Shown here: positions 46,915 through 64,000 of the stretch, piece by piece | Layout: each line of letters begins with the position of its first letter | How positions within the stretch are numbered: the first letter of the stretch is position 1 | Origin: Cellulophaga lytica DSM 7489 | GTDB lineage: Bacteria > Bacteroidota > Bacteroidia > Flavobacteriales > Flavobacteriaceae | Direction of reading: 5' to 3' | Assembly: GCF_000190595.1 (NCBI RefSeq) | Contig: NC_015167.1 | Span: 248,001 to 312,000, forward strand | DNA: 64,000 nt | Position numbers and translations under genes: made by a program | The notes under the pieces: model-generated | Told to the model about the DNA's origin: nothing | What the model saw: the letters and a program-made list of their open reading frames with translations, nothing else | Database searches by the model: none

Positions 46915-47928
46915 ATGAAAGAACGTAACTTACTACAGTATTTAATTATTACGCTAAAAGGTTTAGCTATGGGTGCCGCAGATGCTGTACCAGGTGTTTC
47001 TGGAGGTACAATTGCATTTATTTCTGGTATTTATGAAGAACTAATAAATAGTATAAGCAACATAAACTTATCTCTATTTAAAACGTTAAAAAATGATGGT
47101 ATTAAAGCATTTTGGAAGCAAGCAAATGGCAATTTTGTATTAGCCTTACTAACAGGGATAATAATAAGTTTTATTTCCTTTATGCGTTTGGCTAAATATT
47201 TAATAGAATACCACCCAATTTTAATTTGGTCGTTCTTTTTTGGTTTAATTGTAGTGAGTATTTACTTTGTAGGCAAACAAATTACAAAGTGGAATGCACT
47301 AACAGTAATAGCTTTAATTATTGGTGCTGGGTTAGCATATTATATTACAAGTTTACCAGCTTTAGCAGCCAATACTAACCCATATTATTTACTTTTTGCT
47401 GGAGCTGTTGCCATTTGCGCAATGATTTTGCCTGGTATATCTGGTTCTTTTATTTTAGTAATTATGGGAGCTTACAAAACATTAAGTGACGCTTTTCATG
47501 ATTTTGATTTAAAAAAAATAGCCTTGTTTGCTACTGGTGCTTTAATTGGGTTATTAAGTTTTAGTAGAGTTTTAAAATGGCTATTTAAAAATTATCACAA
47601 TACTACACTAGCACTTTTAACTGGTTTTATTTTAGGTTCTTTAAACAAAGTTTGGCCTTGGAAAAAAACAGTAACTGTAATGGTAGATGAAACAGGAGAA
47701 ATTGTACCTTTTAATACCATATCTGATCTTGGAACATTAGCTGTTTATCAAAAAAACATACATAATTTTGAATCGTTTAAAACGGTTACAGAAGAAAGTA
47801 TTCTGCCAATAAAATACTCAGAGTTAAACCATTATATAGATCCGCAAACTATGATTGCAATTGCACTAATGGTGACAGGTTTTTTAACTATTTTTATACT
47901 AGAAAAAATAGCTACAAAAAACAAATAA
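46915..47928 (+). CDS. DUF368 polyprenyl-phosphate translocase-like membrane protein, copy 1
   Basis: The 337-residue protein has about eight to nine hydrophobic segments and the two DUF368 signatures: GAADAVPGVSGGTIAFISGIYEEL near the N terminus and MILPGISGSFILVIMGAYK in the middle, an internal repeat of a PG(V/I)SG re-entrant motif. DUF368 proteins (PopT) have been identified as undecaprenyl-phosphate recyclers in the cytoplasmic membrane of other bacteria. The next gene, 5 bases downstream, is a paralogue. Confidence 0.88.
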   Translation: MKERNLLQYLIITLKGLAMGAADAVPGVSGGTIAFISGIYEELINSISNINLSLFKTLKNDGIKAFWKQANGNFVLALLTGIIISFISFMRLAKYLIEYHPILIWSFFFGLIVVSIYFVGKQITKWNALTVIALIIGAGLAYYITSLPALAANTNPYYLLFAGAVAICAMILPGISGSFILVIMGAYKTLSDAFHDFDLKKIALFATGALIGLLSFSRVLKWLFKNYHNTTLALLTGFILGSLNKVWPWKKTVTVMVDETGEIVPFNTISDLGTLAVYQKNIHNFESFKTVTEESILPIKYSELNHYIDPQTMIAIALMVTGFLTIFILEKIATKNK

Positions 47929-47933
47929 ACACA

Positions 47934-48953
47934 ATGGCACATACTAGAACAGTTTTAGACAAGTTTCTCCTTGTTGTTAAAGGACTATGTATGGGTGCTG
48001 CAAATAAAGTACCTGGTGTTTCTGGCGGTATTGTTGCATTTGTGGGAGGCTTTTATGAAGAGTTTATATACTCACTACAAAAATTTAACTTTAAAGCTCT
48101 AAAACTGCTTTTAAATGGCAGACTCAAGAGTTTTTACAATTACATTAACGGCACATTTATTACGTTACTAATTTTTGGTATGCTGGTAAGCTATTTTAGC
48201 GTTTCAAAAATTTTAGACTACTTTTTAGAGCATAATGAGTTATATGTTTGGTCTTGTTTTTTTGGAATGATTGTAGGTTCTATTTATTACATTGCCAAGG
48301 GGTTTGATCATTGGAACAAAAAAACCTTTTTTGCTGCCCTAGTTGGTTTAGCAATAGGGATTTCTATAAGTTTCTTAAATCCGGCTAAAGAAAATGACAA
48401 TCTTTTTTTTATTTTCTTTTGTGGAATTATTAGTGTATCTGGTATGACGCTCCCAGGATTATCTGGATCTTTTATATTAATTCTTTTAGGCAATTATGTA
48501 CTACTTTTGGTAGACTCCGTTAATGCCTTGTATGACACATTTACAGAAATAATTAAAGGCGACTTTAGTTTTACCAAAAACACAGAACGCTTAAATACCT
48601 TAACCGTACTTGGTGTTTTTACAGCAGGTTCTGCCATTGGTTTGGTAACATTGTCTCACATTATAAGTTACGTTTTAAAACACTTTAAACACATAACAAC
48701 AGCTGTTATTTTGGGCTTTATAACGGGGTCTTTGGGAGTTGTTTGGCCTTGGAAAAAAACTGTATATAAAGTAGATGCTGTTGGGAATATTTTAATAGAC
48801 TCTAACGGAAACAAAATTATCAAGAATTATTCTCGCTATTTTCCCGATTTTGTGATTTCTGAAACTTGGTGGGCAGTTTTTTTTGTAGTTATAGGAATAA
48901 GTATTTTATTGGTCCTAGATTGGTATGGAAAAAACAGAAAAAAAACAGTATAA
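47934..48953 (+). CDS. DUF368 polyprenyl-phosphate translocase-like membrane protein, copy 2
   Basis: The 339-residue paralogue of the preceding protein keeps GAANKVPGVSGGIVAFVGGFYEEF and MTLPGLSGSFILILLGNY, and the shared late motif SLGVVWPWKKTV (SLNKVWPWKKTV in copy 1). Elsewhere it is clearly diverged, so this is an old duplication and not a recent one. It probably also handles undecaprenyl phosphate or another polyprenyl carrier. Its 3' end overlaps aroE by 29 bases. Confidence 0.88.
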   Translation: MAHTRTVLDKFLLVVKGLCMGAANKVPGVSGGIVAFVGGFYEEFIYSLQKFNFKALKLLLNGRLKSFYNYINGTFITLLIFGMLVSYFSVSKILDYFLEHNELYVWSCFFGMIVGSIYYIAKGFDHWNKKTFFAALVGLAIGISISFLNPAKENDNLFFIFFCGIISVSGMTLPGLSGSFILILLGNYVLLLVDSVNALYDTFTEIIKGDFSFTKNTERLNTLTVLGVFTAGSAIGLVTLSHIISYVLKHFKHITTAVILGFITGSLGVVWPWKKTVYKVDAVGNILIDSNGNKIIKNYSRYFPDFVISETWWAVFFVVIGISILLVLDWYGKNRKKTV

Positions 48954-57392: not shown

Positions 57393-57400
57393 TATATTTG
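57393..57400 (+). promoter_or_regulatory. -7 promoter element of the PL6 gene
   Basis: TATATTTG matches TAnnTTTG exactly. It overlaps the left palindrome of the operator (57398-57409), so a bound protein would block polymerase. The ATG is 34 bases downstream. Confidence 0.6.
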
Positions 57401-57421
57401 GTAAACCAATCTGGTTAACCA
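57398..57421. promoter_or_regulatory. Paired palindromic operator before the PL6-PL17 genes
   Basis: Two palindromes, TTGGTAAACCAA (57398-57409) and TGGTTAACCA (57412-57421), whose cores begin 13 bases apart. The same arrangement occurs at 62158-62186 before susC, with 21 of 24 aligned bases identical. TGGT-nn-ACCA symmetry fits a dimeric regulator, for example GntR/FadR type or LacI type. Position over the -7 element suggests repression in the absence of alginate products. Confidence 0.75.
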
Positions 57422-57434
57422 ATTTTATATTTTT

Positions 57435-59762
57435 ATGCAAAAACATACATTATACTTAGCTTTTATACTACTTTTTAGTATTACTTCATGCACACAAAAA
57501 AAGAATACCGTAGCTACTTTACAACAATTTAACACTGCAGTAAAAAATGCACAACCTGGAGATGTAATTACACTGGCTAATGGCGTATGGAACAATACCG
57601 AATTACTTTTTGCTGCAAAAGGCACAGCAGAAAAGCCAATAACTTTAACTGTAGAAGAAAAAGGTAAGGTAACTTTAGAAGGGCAAAGTAACTTACGTAT
57701 TGCAGGTGAACACTTAATTATTAATGGTTTGGTATTTAAAAATGGTTATACTCCCACTAATGAAGTTATCTCTTTTAAACAAAATGCTAAAACTCTTGCA
57801 AATAACACTAGACTAACAGAATGTGTTATAGATAATTTTAGTAACCCAGAACGTCACGAACCAGATACTTGGGTTGCTATATACGGTAAAAATAACCGAA
57901 TTGACCACAACCATTTAACTGGTAAAAAAAATAGAGGTGTTACTATGACGGTTAGGTTAAATTCTAAAGAAAGTCAAGACAACAATCATAAAATAGATCA
58001 CAACTATTTTGGACCTAGACAAAACTTAGGCTCTAACGGTGGTGAGACTTTACGTATTGGAACTAGCCATTTTTCTAGAACAAACTCTAATACTATTGTA
58101 GAAAATAATTATTTTGATAGGTGTAACGGAGAACATGAAATAATCTCTAACAAATCATGTCAAAACACATACAAAAACAATGTTTTTTATGAGTGTACAG
58201 GTACATTAACTATGCGCCACGGTAACAGAACTATGGTAGATGGCAACATATTTATTGGCAACAATAAACCTAGCACAGGTGGTATTAGGATTATTAATGG
58301 TGAGCAAACTGTTATAAATAATTATGGTATTGGATTAACTGGTTACCGTTTTAGAGGTGCTTTTGTTATTATGAACGGAATTTACAATTCTCCTATTAAT
58401 AGGTATGACCAAGTTAAAGATGCTGTTGTAAAAAATAACACTTTTGTTAATAGTAACCACATTCAGTTATGTGCAGGTAGTGATGAAGAACGTAGTGCTC
58501 CTCCTGTAAACTCTGTTATGGAAAATAATATTTTTTATAATGAGAGTAAAGATTCAATTTTTACGGTTTATGATGATATTAATGGTATTACATTTACAAA
58601 TAACATTATTAGTAAAAACATAAAACCAATTACTGATACTGGATTTGTAAGTAAAGATATTGAGTGGGTAAAAAATACAGACGGATTGCTAGTTCCTGCT
58701 AACTCTAACTTAAGAGCTGGTGCTAAATTACCAGGTGAAATTCTTAAAAAAGAAGATACAGGTGTTAACTGGTACTCTAAAAAAAATACTGCTGTTGCCT
58801 TTGGTACTGGTAAAAAAATTACAGTAGAACCAGGTTTAAATACTTTGTTTGAAGCTGTAAATAATTCTTCAGCCGGAGACGTAGTAGAGCTTACTGCTGG
58901 CGAAACTTATACTTTATCAAAAACTATAGCTATAAATCATCCTATTACTATCCTTTCTAATTCAGATAAAAAACCTACTATTTTATTTGAAAAGAAAACC
59001 TTATTTGAAATTAACAATGGAGGCAGCTTAAAATTAACTGGAATTAATTTTGATGGTGAAAGCGCCCCAGACAGAACAGGAAATTCTGTAATTACTACTA
59101 GTAAATACTCAATGAACAAAAATTACAAATTGTTTATAGATAATTGTGACTTTGTAAACTTAGATGTTAACCATTCTTTTGATGCTGTAATGGTGTACAA
59201 AAACACATTTGCAGACACAATTAGTATTAAAAATTCAAAATTTAATACTATTAGTGGTAACGTTTTGGCTTTAGATAAAGAAACTGAAGATATTGGTATC
59301 TATAATGCAGAATATGTAATCTTAAAAAATAATAGTTTTAACAATGTAAATGGTGCTGTTTTAAGTTTACACAGAGGTGGTAAGGATGAAAGTACTTTTG
59401 GTCCGTTTTTAGAATTAGACCATAACACTTTTGACGCTATTGGTTACGGTAAAAGAAATAAATACAATGCTGCAATTAACTTATATGGTGTGCAAGTAAA
59501 TACTATTACCAACAATATATTTAACAACACAAAATCGTTAAAAATGCATTTAGTTGTTGGTGAGCCAATAGTAGATATTTTAAACAATAATTTTTACAAA
59601 TCTGATGGTTTAGAAGTTACTGGTGATCAAAAATACAATGTTAAAAACCTATGGACATTAGATCCTAAATTTAAAGAAGGTACTTATACATTATCTAAAA
59701 ATTCTGACCTTTTAAATAAAGGTACAGATGGCAAAAATTTAGGATTAATTAGTAATAACTAG
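57435..59762 (+). CDS. PL6 alginate lyase lipoprotein (two beta-helix domains)
   Basis: The 775-residue lipoprotein (MQKHTLYLAFILLFSITSCTQ, lipobox Cys) has an N-terminal parallel beta-helix of polysaccharide lyase family 6 and a second beta-helix from about residue 450. HKIDHNYFGPRQNLGSNGGE, HEIISNKSCQNTYKNNVF and LTMRHGNRTMVDGN are PL6 signatures. Lys240 and Arg261 correspond to the catalytic Lys220 and Arg241 reported for the alginate lyase AlyGC, with the same 21-residue spacing. It cleaves alginate (often polyguluronate or mixed blocks) by beta-elimination at the cell surface or in the periplasm. PL17 starts 3 bases downstream, so their products would be processed in series. Confidence 0.93.
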   Translation: MQKHTLYLAFILLFSITSCTQKKNTVATLQQFNTAVKNAQPGDVITLANGVWNNTELLFAAKGTAEKPITLTVEEKGKVTLEGQSNLRIAGEHLIINGLVFKNGYTPTNEVISFKQNAKTLANNTRLTECVIDNFSNPERHEPDTWVAIYGKNNRIDHNHLTGKKNRGVTMTVRLNSKESQDNNHKIDHNYFGPRQNLGSNGGETLRIGTSHFSRTNSNTIVENNYFDRCNGEHEIISNKSCQNTYKNNVFYECTGTLTMRHGNRTMVDGNIFIGNNKPSTGGIRIINGEQTVINNYGIGLTGYRFRGAFVIMNGIYNSPINRYDQVKDAVVKNNTFVNSNHIQLCAGSDEERSAPPVNSVMENNIFYNESKDSIFTVYDDINGITFTNNIISKNIKPITDTGFVSKDIEWVKNTDGLLVPANSNLRAGAKLPGEILKKEDTGVNWYSKKNTAVAFGTGKKITVEPGLNTLFEAVNNSSAGDVVELTAGETYTLSKTIAINHPITILSNSDKKPTILFEKKTLFEINNGGSLKLTGINFDGESAPDRTGNSVITTSKYSMNKNYKLFIDNCDFVNLDVNHSFDAVMVYKNTFADTISIKNSKFNTISGNVLALDKETEDIGIYNAEYVILKNNSFNNVNGAVLSLHRGGKDESTFGPFLELDHNTFDAIGYGKRNKYNAAINLYGVQVNTITNNIFNNTKSLKMHLVVGEPIVDILNNNFYKSDGLEVTGDQKYNVKNLWTLDPKFKEGTYTLSKNSDLLNKGTDGKNLGLISNN

Positions 59763-59765
59763 ATA

Positions 59766-62030
59766 ATGATTGTAAAAAAATATATATGCTTTATTTTAAT
59801 ATGTTTTCTTTTTGCTTGCAAAAAAGATAATAAAGCTGCCATTAAAAATAATGTAGAACAAAATACTGCAAGCCACCCTAGTTTAATACTTACCCAAAAA
59901 GGCGTAAAAAATATTAAAGCACAGTTAGGAACAATTCCTTTGTTTGATAAAACTTTAGAAGATGTTAAACAAGATGTAGATGCAGAGATTAGTAAAGGTA
60001 TTGCTGTTCCTATTCCTAAAGATTTTTCTGGAGGTTATACGCATGAACAGCACAAAAAAAACTTTCTAATACTACAAAAAGCTGGTGTGCTTTATCAAAT
60101 TTTAGATGATGAAAAATATGCTGTATATGTAAGAGATATGTTTTTAGAGTACGCAAAATTATACCCTACTCTTCCTTTACACCCACAAGAAAGATCTTAT
60201 GCAAGAGGAAAACTTTTTTGGCAGTGTTTAAATGATTCTAACTGGTTGGTATATGCTAGCCAAGCATACGATTGTATCTATAATTGGTTATCAAAAGAAG
60301 AAAGAGAACATTTAGAAAATGATTTATTTATTCCGTTTGCCAATTTTATATCAGAAAAAAATCCACAGTTTTTTAATAGAGTACACAACCATAGTACCTG
60401 GGGTAATGTTGCTGTAGGAATGATTGCTCTTGTAATGGATAATGATGAGCTATTACAAAAAGCTCTATACGGACTAAAAACAGATTCTATTGCGGCTAAT
60501 TTAAAAGATGATGATGGTGGATTTATAAAAAATAAAGATCAGAAAGTTGGTTTTTTAGCAAACTTAGATGAACCATTTTCTCCTGACGGATATTATACTG
60601 AAGGTCCTTATTACCAAAGGTATGCTATGTACCCATTTTTAATTTTTGCACAAGCACTAGAAAATAAAAAACCTGAACTTAAAATTTTTGAGCATAAAAA
60701 TGCAGTACTAACAAAAGCTGTAGAAGCATTAATTAACCTAACTGATAAAGACGGAGAGTTTTACACAATTAATGATGCACAAAAAGGAATGTCTTACTAC
60801 TCCAGAGAATTAGTAACAGCTGTAGATATTGCTTACCATTACGGAGGCAATAACCCAGAACTATTAAGTATTGCAAAAAAACAAAATAAAGTAAATTTAG
60901 ACGATACAGGTTTAGCAGTAGCATTGGGTTTAAAAAACAATCTAGATAAACCTTTTAGAAAAAAATCTATTACTTTAACAGATGGTCCAAATGGCAACCA
61001 AGGTGGCATAAGTATATTACGCAATAATAATTTAGAGGTTATTTTTAAATATACAGCACAAGGTCTTAGTCACGGTCATTATGACAAGTTATCTTTTTTT
61101 ATGTACAATAATGGTACAGAGGTTATACAAGATTATGGCTTGGCAAGGTTTGTTAATATAGAACAAAAAGGTGGCGGTAACTACTTAAAAGAAAATACTA
61201 CTTGGGCAAAACAAACAATAGCGCATAATACCGTTATACAAAATGAAACTTCTCATTTTAATGGCAAGTATAGTATAGGTAGCAAAAACCACTCTAACCA
61301 ATACTTATTTAATATTTCTGAAAAAATTAAAGTGGTTAGCGCTAAAGAAAATAACGCATACCCTGGCACAGAGTTACACAGGACTATGGCTATAGTGACA
61401 GACTCTTCTTTTATTAAACAACCATTTGTTTTAGATATTTTTAATGTTATTGGTACATCAACAAACAAATACGATTTGCCTTTCTATTACAAGGGGCAAA
61501 TAATGCAAACAAATTTTAAGTATACACAACAAGCTACATTAAAAACATTAGGAGACAAAAATGGCTATCAACATTTATTTGTAGAGGCTTTAGCAGACGC
61601 ACCAAATAGTAACTTAAAATTTAATTGGATGCACAATAATGTATTTTACACATTAACTTCTGCTACACAAGCAACAGACAAAATTATTTTTGCCAGAATT
61701 GGTGCTAACGATCCAGAATATAATTTAAGAAGAGATCCTACTTTAATCATTAGAAAAACTAATACTAAAAACGCATTATACGTAAATGCCATAGAAGCAC
61801 ATGGTAGCTACAGTCCTGTATCAGAGTTCTCTGTAAATGCTTACAGTAGTATTGCTAAAATAGAAACCCTTTTAAATACTAAAGACTATACAGCTATACG
61901 CATTACAAACAATAATAAACAGTCTAAACTATTTATTTTTTCTAATACAAACCCAGACAAAACTACAGCACATTCAATTACAATTAATGATAATGAATTT
62001 AACTGGGTAGGTTCATACACTTATAACTAA
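59766..62030 (+). CDS. PL17 oligoalginate lyase lipoprotein
   Basis: The 754-residue lipoprotein (VKKYICFILICFLFACKKD, lipobox Cys) has an alpha/alpha-toroid N-terminal domain (DSNWLVYASQAYDCIYNWLS, RVHNHSTWGNVAVGMIAL with Asn208-His209, SPDGYYTEGPYYQRYAMYPF) and a C-terminal beta-sandwich of heparinase II/III type (GLSHGHYDKLSFFMYNNGTE, WAKQTIAHNTVIQNE). Family PL17 enzymes act mainly as exolytic oligoalginate lyases and release unsaturated uronate monomers, which become DEH. It is paired with the endolytic PL6 enzyme 3 bases upstream. Further catabolic genes are not in view. Confidence 0.93.
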   Translation: MIVKKYICFILICFLFACKKDNKAAIKNNVEQNTASHPSLILTQKGVKNIKAQLGTIPLFDKTLEDVKQDVDAEISKGIAVPIPKDFSGGYTHEQHKKNFLILQKAGVLYQILDDEKYAVYVRDMFLEYAKLYPTLPLHPQERSYARGKLFWQCLNDSNWLVYASQAYDCIYNWLSKEEREHLENDLFIPFANFISEKNPQFFNRVHNHSTWGNVAVGMIALVMDNDELLQKALYGLKTDSIAANLKDDDGGFIKNKDQKVGFLANLDEPFSPDGYYTEGPYYQRYAMYPFLIFAQALENKKPELKIFEHKNAVLTKAVEALINLTDKDGEFYTINDAQKGMSYYSRELVTAVDIAYHYGGNNPELLSIAKKQNKVNLDDTGLAVALGLKNNLDKPFRKKSITLTDGPNGNQGGISILRNNNLEVIFKYTAQGLSHGHYDKLSFFMYNNGTEVIQDYGLARFVNIEQKGGGNYLKENTTWAKQTIAHNTVIQNETSHFNGKYSIGSKNHSNQYLFNISEKIKVVSAKENNAYPGTELHRTMAIVTDSSFIKQPFVLDIFNVIGTSTNKYDLPFYYKGQIMQTNFKYTQQATLKTLGDKNGYQHLFVEALADAPNSNLKFNWMHNNVFYTLTSATQATDKIIFARIGANDPEYNLRRDPTLIIRKTNTKNALYVNAIEAHGSYSPVSEFSVNAYSSIAKIETLLNTKDYTAIRITNNNKQSKLFIFSNTNPDKTTAHSITINDNEFNWVGSYTYN

Positions 62031-62157
62031 CTTAATTTTATCTATATGAAAAAAAATGAAATGTCTTTTATCCTAATACAGAGAGTTTTACAAAAAAACT
62101 TATTAATGTGTATTTAATTTTTTTTTAACAAAATTTTTACATATATTCGAAAAGTAT

Positions 62158-62186
62158 AAACTGGTTAACCAGTTTGGTTAACCAAA
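62158..62186. promoter_or_regulatory. Paired palindromic operator before susC
   Basis: AAACTGGTTAACCAGTTT (18-base perfect palindrome, 62158-62175) overlaps TTTGGTTAACCAAA (14-base perfect palindrome, 62173-62186). The cores begin at 62162 and 62175, again 13 bases apart as in the copy before PL6. This is the stronger of the two copies. Confidence 0.78.
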
Positions 62187-62378: not shown

Positions 62379-64000
62379 ATGAACTTAAAAACAAAGCTAA
62401 TTTTGGTTATGACACTATTTTGTAGTGCTATAACTATAGCTCAAGAAAGCTTTCCTATAAAAGGTACGGTAGTCTCTTCTGCAGACAACTTACCTATTTT
62501 AGGAGTAAACATTATCATTAAAAATACTGCTACAGGCACAACTACAGATTTTGATGGCAACTATGAAATTAAAGCTAAAAAAGGTGATGTTCTTCAATTT
62601 TCTTTTATTGGATTTATTACTAAAAGTATTACTGTAGCAGACCAAACTACCATTAATGTTACTTTAGATGAAGATGCTAGTAAGTTAGATGAAGTTGTGG
62701 TTATTGGTTATGGTACACAAAAAAAATCTCACCTAACAGGTTCTATTTCTAAAGTAGTAAACGAAGATTTAGGACAAATTGCTGTTTCTAGGGTAGATGA
62801 TGCCTTAGTAGGTCAAGTATCTGGTGTTAACATACAAGCTACAGAAGGTGAAGCTGGTTCTGATCCTACAATTAGAATTAGAGGAACAGGTTCTATTACA
62901 GGTAACTCTGGACCACTAGTTGTTGTAGATGGTGTTGTGGTTCCTAATGACTATTTGGGTTCTTTAGATATGAATGACGTTGAATCTTTTGAAATTTTAA
63001 AAGATGCAGCTTCTGGTGCTATTTATGGTTCTAGAGGTGGTAATGGTATTATACAAATTACTACAAAATCTGGTAAATCGGGTGAAACTAGGTTTAGCTA
63101 CTCTACATTAACTGGTGTTAAAACAGCAAGACAGAGTGATGCTTACTACTCTACAGTAGCAGAAACTGCCGCTGCAGAATTACAGTTTACACATACACTT
63201 TCAGACCGTACAAGATACAAACAGTTAATTGGCGTAGATACCAACTGGCAAGAAATTATTTTTGATGGTGGTATTATTACAAACCACTCTTTAGGTATTA
63301 GAGGTGGTAATGATAAATTAAGATTTAGTACAAACCTAAACTACAACCATGATGAAGGGGTTTTACTTACTGATGATTTTAAAAAATACAGTGTAAAAGT
63401 TAGATTAGATTATGATGTTACAGATAACTTAACAATTGGTCTTAGTGCTACTCCTTCTTACACAGAACGTAGACGTTTTGATGGTAGTACACATGATATT
63501 TTAAGACAACCTTCATGGCTACCAGTTTACCATGATGAAAACACTATACAATTTGTAAACAGAGTGCAAGATGGTGGTAAATGGGCAGACGTACAAGTTG
63601 GCGATTATGCTTTACAATACCATTTTGATGGGTATGATTTAGATGCTGGTGCTCCTGCAGACAGTGGAGGTACAAGTATTAGTAACACTTCTAACACTAA
63701 CCCTGCTGCAAAAGTACTAGAAAGAGACCGTAGAGATTTTAGAAGTAAAATTCTTGGTAGCTTTTATGCTAAATACAAAATTAATGACGATTTAAGCTTT
63801 AAAACTACACTTTCTGGTGATTACCAAAGATACAGACAACAAAGATGGCAAGGTGTAGAGGCTAACAGAAACGGAGCAAGTGCTGCTCAGTTAGATAGTA
63901 CAAATACCAGAACACAACACTTAGCTTTAGATAATGTATTATCATACAACAAAACTTTTGATAAGCATGATCTTGGCATAGTATTAGGTGCATCTGGTGA
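62379..64000 (+). CDS. SusC/RagA family TonB-dependent outer-membrane receptor, 3' end missing
   Basis: The frame opens at the ATG at 62379 and runs off the window (about 540 residues). A signal peptide (MNLKTKLILVMTLFCSAITIAQ) is followed by a carboxypeptidase-D-like domain (VVSSADNLPILGVNIIIKNTATG, FDGNYEIKAKKGDVLQFSFIGF), the SusC marker LDEVVVIGYGTQKK, and a plug domain (VSGVNIQATEGEAGSDPTIRIRGTG, GPLVVVDGVVVP, FEILKDAASGAIYGSRGGNGII) leading into barrel strands. It should import alginate oligosaccharides with a SusD partner, expected just outside the window, energised by TonB. Substrate is inferred from the adjacent PL6 and PL17 genes and the shared operator. Confidence 0.93.
   Translation, partial: MNLKTKLILVMTLFCSAITIAQESFPIKGTVVSSADNLPILGVNIIIKNTATGTTTDFDGNYEIKAKKGDVLQFSFIGFITKSITVADQTTINVTLDEDASKLDEVVVIGYGTQKKSHLTGSISKVVNEDLGQIAVSRVDDALVGQVSGVNIQATEGEAGSDPTIRIRGTGSITGNSGPLVVVDGVVVPNDYLGSLDMNDVESFEILKDAASGAIYGSRGGNGIIQITTKSGKSGETRFSYSTLTGVKTARQSDAYYSTVAETAAAELQFTHTLSDRTRYKQLIGVDTNWQEIIFDGGIITNHSLGIRGGNDKLRFSTNLNYNHDEGVLLTDDFKKYSVKVRLDYDVTDNLTIGLSATPSYTERRRFDGSTHDILRQPSWLPVYHDENTIQFVNRVQDGGKWADVQVGDYALQYHFDGYDLDAGAPADSGGTSISNTSNTNPAAKVLERDRRDFRSKILGSFYAKYKINDDLSFKTTLSGDYQRYRQQRWQGVEANRNGASAAQLDSTNTRTQHLALDNVLSYNKTFDKHDLGIVLGASG

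Follow-up and report, generated by a model that had tools for sequence, protein, structure and literature searches.

Two pairs of palindromes in the alginate locus of Cellulophaga lytica DSM 7489, one before the gene for a PL6-type alginate lyase and the other before a susC-type gene, are very probably (we put the probability at roughly 0.92, judging from sequence) double operators of a GntR/FadR-subfamily repressor encoded at the same locus, a candidate orthologue of AusR. The AusR alginate regulon of Zobellia galactanivorans was reportedly described by Dudek et al. in 2020. The AusR system and its basic mechanism are thus already published for Zobellia, and C. lytica is a further instance. 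The anatomy and uniqueness of the sites, the regulator, its co-occurrence with the sites, their fixed spacing and their fusion to the -7 box were computed in this analysis, whereas repression, and its predicted release by metabolic intermediates in C. lytica, are taken from the AusR literature.

Probable operator pairs and their place in the genome

The window analysed here, a 64-kb stretch of the C. lytica chromosome, holds part of an alginate locus with the gene order PL6, PL17, followed by susC, susD, PKD, PL7, gntR, MFS and SDR; alginate degradation has been reported for C. lytica LIM-21T (PMC3111997). The PL6-type alginate lyase (57435..59762, plus strand; 775 aa, chondroitinase B fold, PF14592 at 1.1e-117) is the first gene of its operon and the PL17-type oligoalginate lyase (59766..62030, plus strand; PF05426, PF07940), which starts 3 bp after it, is the second; the latter matches NF042990 at 3.7e-203 but below the cut-off of that model. 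The gene for the susC-type TonB-dependent receptor (62379..63998, plus strand) extends beyond the window end, past which follow, in order, susD, the genes for a PKD protein, a PL7 lyase, the GntR regulator and an MFS transporter, and the SDR gene, which probably encodes a DEH reductase. The SDR gene is cut off by a run of exactly 2500 N (L008:15002-17501), which covers its remainder and the DNA beyond, probably including kdgF, kdgK and kdgA. Directly 3' of the locus, on the opposite strand, there is an rRNA operon that includes two tRNAs (L008:17489-20000 and L009:1-959). Elsewhere the genome encodes a protein closely related to porphyranase B (PDB 3juu, E 6e-150; G000:C1:465481, L197) and a kappa-carrageenase-like GH16 protein (G000:C1:3334025, L199), and at 46915-48953 of the window two adjacent undecaprenyl-phosphate translocase-like genes of the same family (PF04018) stand in tandem.

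The first operator pair lies 23-36 bp upstream of the PL6-type gene and consists of TTGGTAAACCAA at 57398..57409 (core 57399-57408) and CTGGTTAACCAA at 57411..57422 (core 57412-57421). The second, approximately 200 bp upstream of susC, consists of CTGGTTAACCAG at 62161..62172 (core 62162-62171) and TTGGTTAACCAA at 62174..62185 (core 62175-62184); none of the four is assigned to a strand. The core of a single operator is TGGTNNACCA (TGGT-N2-ACCA), such that a pair reads TGGTNNACCA-N3-TGGTNNACCA, and each repeat unit of the arrays is the 12-bp palindrome YTGGTNNACCAR; the 13-bp pitch therefore leaves one base between neighbouring palindromes. The preliminary description had placed palindromes with cores 13 bases apart before both genes, and all of its coordinates are correct. 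A recount likewise agrees with its three differing positions between the two copies over 24 bases, and the first operator before susC is indeed the centre of an 18-bp perfect palindrome, AAACTGGTTAACCAGTTT (62158-62175).

That description had also seen no further full pair in the 64 kb. The present search agrees and extends the result to the whole 3,765,936-bp genome, in which exact 13-bp-spaced pairs of TGGTNNACCA are confined to two places, the PL6 and susC promoters. By chance, approximately 0.007 such pairs would be expected genome-wide from the 163 single cores present, and simulation with an order-3 Markov model returned one pair in 6.4 Mb. Single exact TGGTNNACCA occurrences number 163 in the genome versus 132 for a reversed control, and the longer YTGGTNNACCAR occurs 60 times versus 16 for its control. 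About 20 of these 60 extended sites, chiefly those with AT-type centres, were inspected, and all lie inside long open frames, so that they do not represent a scattered regulon; the many unpaired copies over unrelated genes that were named at the outset as counting against the proposal are therefore not seen among them. The next-best pair, with two mismatches (C1:976444), was rejected as it falls within an 890-codon open frame. The regulon identified in C. lytica by exact matches comprises two operons.

Perfect inverted repeats could in principle reflect RNA or DNA structure (a terminator, a hairpin or an inverted-repeat element) as opposed to sites for a protein. Such a reading is extremely improbable, since the repeats are only 10-18 bp long with no loop and no T-run, keep a rigid 13-bp pitch and always stand at promoters, are not mobile, with only four copies in the genome, and are tied in their presence to one regulator gene.

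A GntR/FCD regulator and its probable operators across the family

The preliminary description had supposed a GntR- or FadR-type regulator, out of its view, and had proposed looking for a GntR or LacI gene downstream near susC and susD. A gene for a 234-aa regulator was found in the same cluster as susC, 5 kb past the window end and between the PL7 and MFS genes (G000:C1:317055-317759, equivalent to 69055-69759 in window numbering). The protein has a GntR domain (PF00392, 1.6e-17) and an FCD domain (PF07729, 3.2e-23), and its winged HTH together with the FCD domain assigns it to the FadR subfamily. Its closest named relative, at 94% identity, is from Cellulophaga omnivescoria. The arginines of the HTH in the PSER and VSRSNVR motifs are invariant in 13 aligned orthologues; in Escherichia coli FadR the matching residues contact the guanines. 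Identity with the E. coli-type FadR, the fatty acid regulator, was nonetheless rejected, given a score of 29 bits against the equivalog cut-off of 249 and an operator centre of 2 rather than 3 nt. NCBIfam contains no AusR model, and the best matches there (NanR, LldR and PdhR) are far below cut-off.

To our knowledge, no 13-bp tandem arrays have been described for UxuR/GntR/PrpR or FadR/PdhR/LldR operators. Sites of the FadR subfamily have the form TKGT/ACMA with centres of 2 nt (UxuR/GntR/PrpR type) or 3 nt (FadR/PdhR/LldR type) (PMC4494728), a signature that the TGGT-nn-ACCA symmetry fits, as had been suspected from the first reading. The C. lytica system is thus like the subfamily in its half-sites, FCD effector domain and winged HTH, and like the UxuR group in its 2-nt centre, but differs from the UxuR- and PdhR-type systems in regulon and phylum.

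The distribution of regulator and pair was compared across 299 Flavobacteriaceae genomes, with orthologues called at E below 1e-30. The regulator has an orthologue in 74 genomes and the exact pair pattern occurs in 69, the two coinciding such that the pair is present in 68 of the 74 regulator-bearing genomes versus one of the 225 others (68/1/6/224; Fisher p ~5e-59, a value that overstates the case because the genomes are related and not independent, although the matches nevertheless span 56 genera). Among the six regulator-bearing genomes that do not have the exact pair, those fetched show single sites or mismatched arrays. The sole genome of the 225 with a pair is G154 (G154:C1:406020).

Within 61 alginate loci (60 fetched, plus that of C. 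lytica), TGGTNNACCA occurs 250 times, and wherever neighbours lie within 60 bp of one another the spacing is 13 bp (78 cases) or 26 bp (3 cases), with no other value; six rearranged versions of the motif, used as controls, gave 2-30 sites, none of them closely paired. Sites stand before susC in 52 of the 61 loci, often as triplets once units with at most two mismatches are admitted; in relatives they also precede PL6, PL17 and PL7 genes. A site, mostly single, lies about 20 bp before the start of gntR in 40 of 61 loci. In C. lytica itself no autoregulatory site within two mismatches is present before gntR (L008:11866-12055), unlike Cellulophaga sp. 20_2_10, which has one (L165:9964). The co-occurrence of pair and regulator, and the arrays before susC, PL6, PL17 and gntR in relatives, bear out the proposal of an alginate regulon, and conservation, the lack of which would have spoken against it, is very strong. 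Judged on sequence, the comparison shows the putative AusR operator code to be strongly conserved across marine Flavobacteriaceae.

A different regulator, of another GntR, LacI or Crp type, could feasibly bind the sites while the local GntR protein acts elsewhere: three further genes with GntR domains are present in the C. lytica genome, and LacI and Crp regulators, the Crp type in Cellulophaga, are reported for some alginate clusters (PMC7874173). This appears very unlikely, however, given the near-perfect co-occurrence of the pair with the local GntR orthologue, the position of a site directly before gntR in so many loci, as autoregulation would need, and the agreement of TGGT/ACCA with the FadR-subfamily signature.

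The assignment of the local GntR protein to AusR draws on two genomes that were taken as Zobellia via a porphyranase B marker (PDB 3juu, which we take to be the Z. galactanivorans enzyme), to which they show 99% and 80% identity. Both carry an orthologue of the regulator (66%) in an alginate locus with the same 13-bp arrays, indicating that the C. lytica system is very probably the AusR system; in one of them (G001) a single array, before susC, is fused to TATATTTG. AusR is reported to be a GntR-family repressor encoded in the Z. galactanivorans alginate PUL (PMC7874173, PMC8286568, PMC8073546), and its operators at alginate promoters are described as single, double or triple (PMC7874173). The C. 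lytica regulator is likewise of the GntR family and encoded inside the alginate PUL, and its double operators, next to single, double and triple copies per alginate promoter in relatives, fit that account. Conversely, C. lytica differs from it in that its exact double operators number only two, gntR is not preceded by a site, and the susC array stands away from the -7 box. On these comparisons, the C. lytica sites are very probably AusR-type operators.

Promoter geometry

The flavobacterial sigma-A -7 consensus is TAnnTTTG, at approximately -12 to -5 (PMC9723704). The -7 box of the PL6 promoter, TATATTTG (57393..57400, plus strand), shares bases with the first operator, in agreement with the overlap noted in the preliminary description. 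The same fusion, TAnnTTTGGT with the TG shared and the TA at -6 from TGGT, is found in 66 of 72 multi-site arrays, and in 39 of these 66 a -33 TTG also stands 22 bp 5' of the TA (∼1.2 expected); the PL6 promoter has no TTG at the expected -33 place. Given the usual position of the -7 box, the fusion places the start site inside the array, and hence a bound repressor must cover both the promoter core and the start.

Promoter-proximal binding does not in itself fix the sign of regulation, and the regulator might activate from the pair. Activators normally sit upstream, though, and in 66 of 72 arrays the first operator shares bases of the -7 box and the sites extend across the transcription start. 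AusR is, moreover, reported as a repressor (PMC7874173, PMC8286568), and activation is accordingly considered very unlikely. The repression suggested at the outset is thus supported by the fusion of the first operator to the -7 box.

At susC the geometry in C. lytica is different. The probable -7 box, TATATTCG (62142..62149, plus strand), which has one mismatch to TAnnTTTG and is found in two other Cellulophaga, lies 20 bp rather than 6 bp ahead of the first core, with no such overlap. Relative to the usual -7-fused position, the susC pair of three Cellulophaga is shifted 14 bp downstream (62142-62161; L115:4966; L165:3085), a form that C. lytica shares with C. omnivescoria (L115) and Cellulophaga sp. 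20_2_10 (L165). Most other flavobacteria retain the fusion. In some relatives the linker that follows the second site of an array (e.g. L061) is ACCAGTTTGG, identical to the linker inside the Cellulophaga pair, and from this match the Cellulophaga susC promoter may have lost its first, fused site.

A family-wide cassette can be suggested tentatively, although we hold it to be doubtful overall, in which the -7 box and first AusR operator form one sequence (TAnnTTTGGTnnACCA) and further operators follow at the rigid 13-bp pitch, implying an array of repressors that winds round the DNA downstream from the -7 box; Cellulophaga susC, without a fused site, would then perhaps be repressed by blocking of early transcription and be leakier. 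If true, leakage from the Cellulophaga susC promoter would keep uptake going at a basal level. Both the fusion to the -7 box and the displaced susC array of Cellulophaga may be details not yet reported.

Proposed mechanism and its meaning

In the proposed mechanism each YTGGTNNACCAR palindrome would be bound by one dimer through the winged HTH, and the two abutting palindromes, at their 13-bp pitch, would hold two dimers. That two dimers sit side by side on a pair, and perhaps cooperate, is suggested by the invariant pitch: 13 bp amounts to approximately 1.24 turns, which would set neighbouring dimers some 86 degrees apart and close enough for contact. A precedent is provided by E. coli NanR, three dimers of which pack cooperatively on a (GGTATA)3 repeat operator (PMC8012715); NanR is similarly a FadR-subfamily repressor with several dimers on close repeats, released by a sugar-acid effector, but its repeats are direct as opposed to the repeated palindromes of C. 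lytica, the pitch is different, and the two regulators share only distant sequence similarity.

When alginate is absent, dimers at the PL6 promoter would occlude its -7 box together with the start site, and those at susC would sit over the start and the early part of the transcribed region, keeping both operons off. By analogy with the AusR model, in which repression is reported to be relieved by alginate metabolic intermediates (PMC7874173, PMC8286568), the effector is presumably an alginate catabolic intermediate that would bind the FCD domain, free the repressor and so induce both operons.

The alginate locus of C. lytica thereby gains a putative regulator and a compact two-operon regulon. 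Since the operator code appears strongly conserved, alginate induction should be predictable from sequence in many genera, and the constant 13-bp pitch, together with the fusion to the -7 box, offers a testable structural model.
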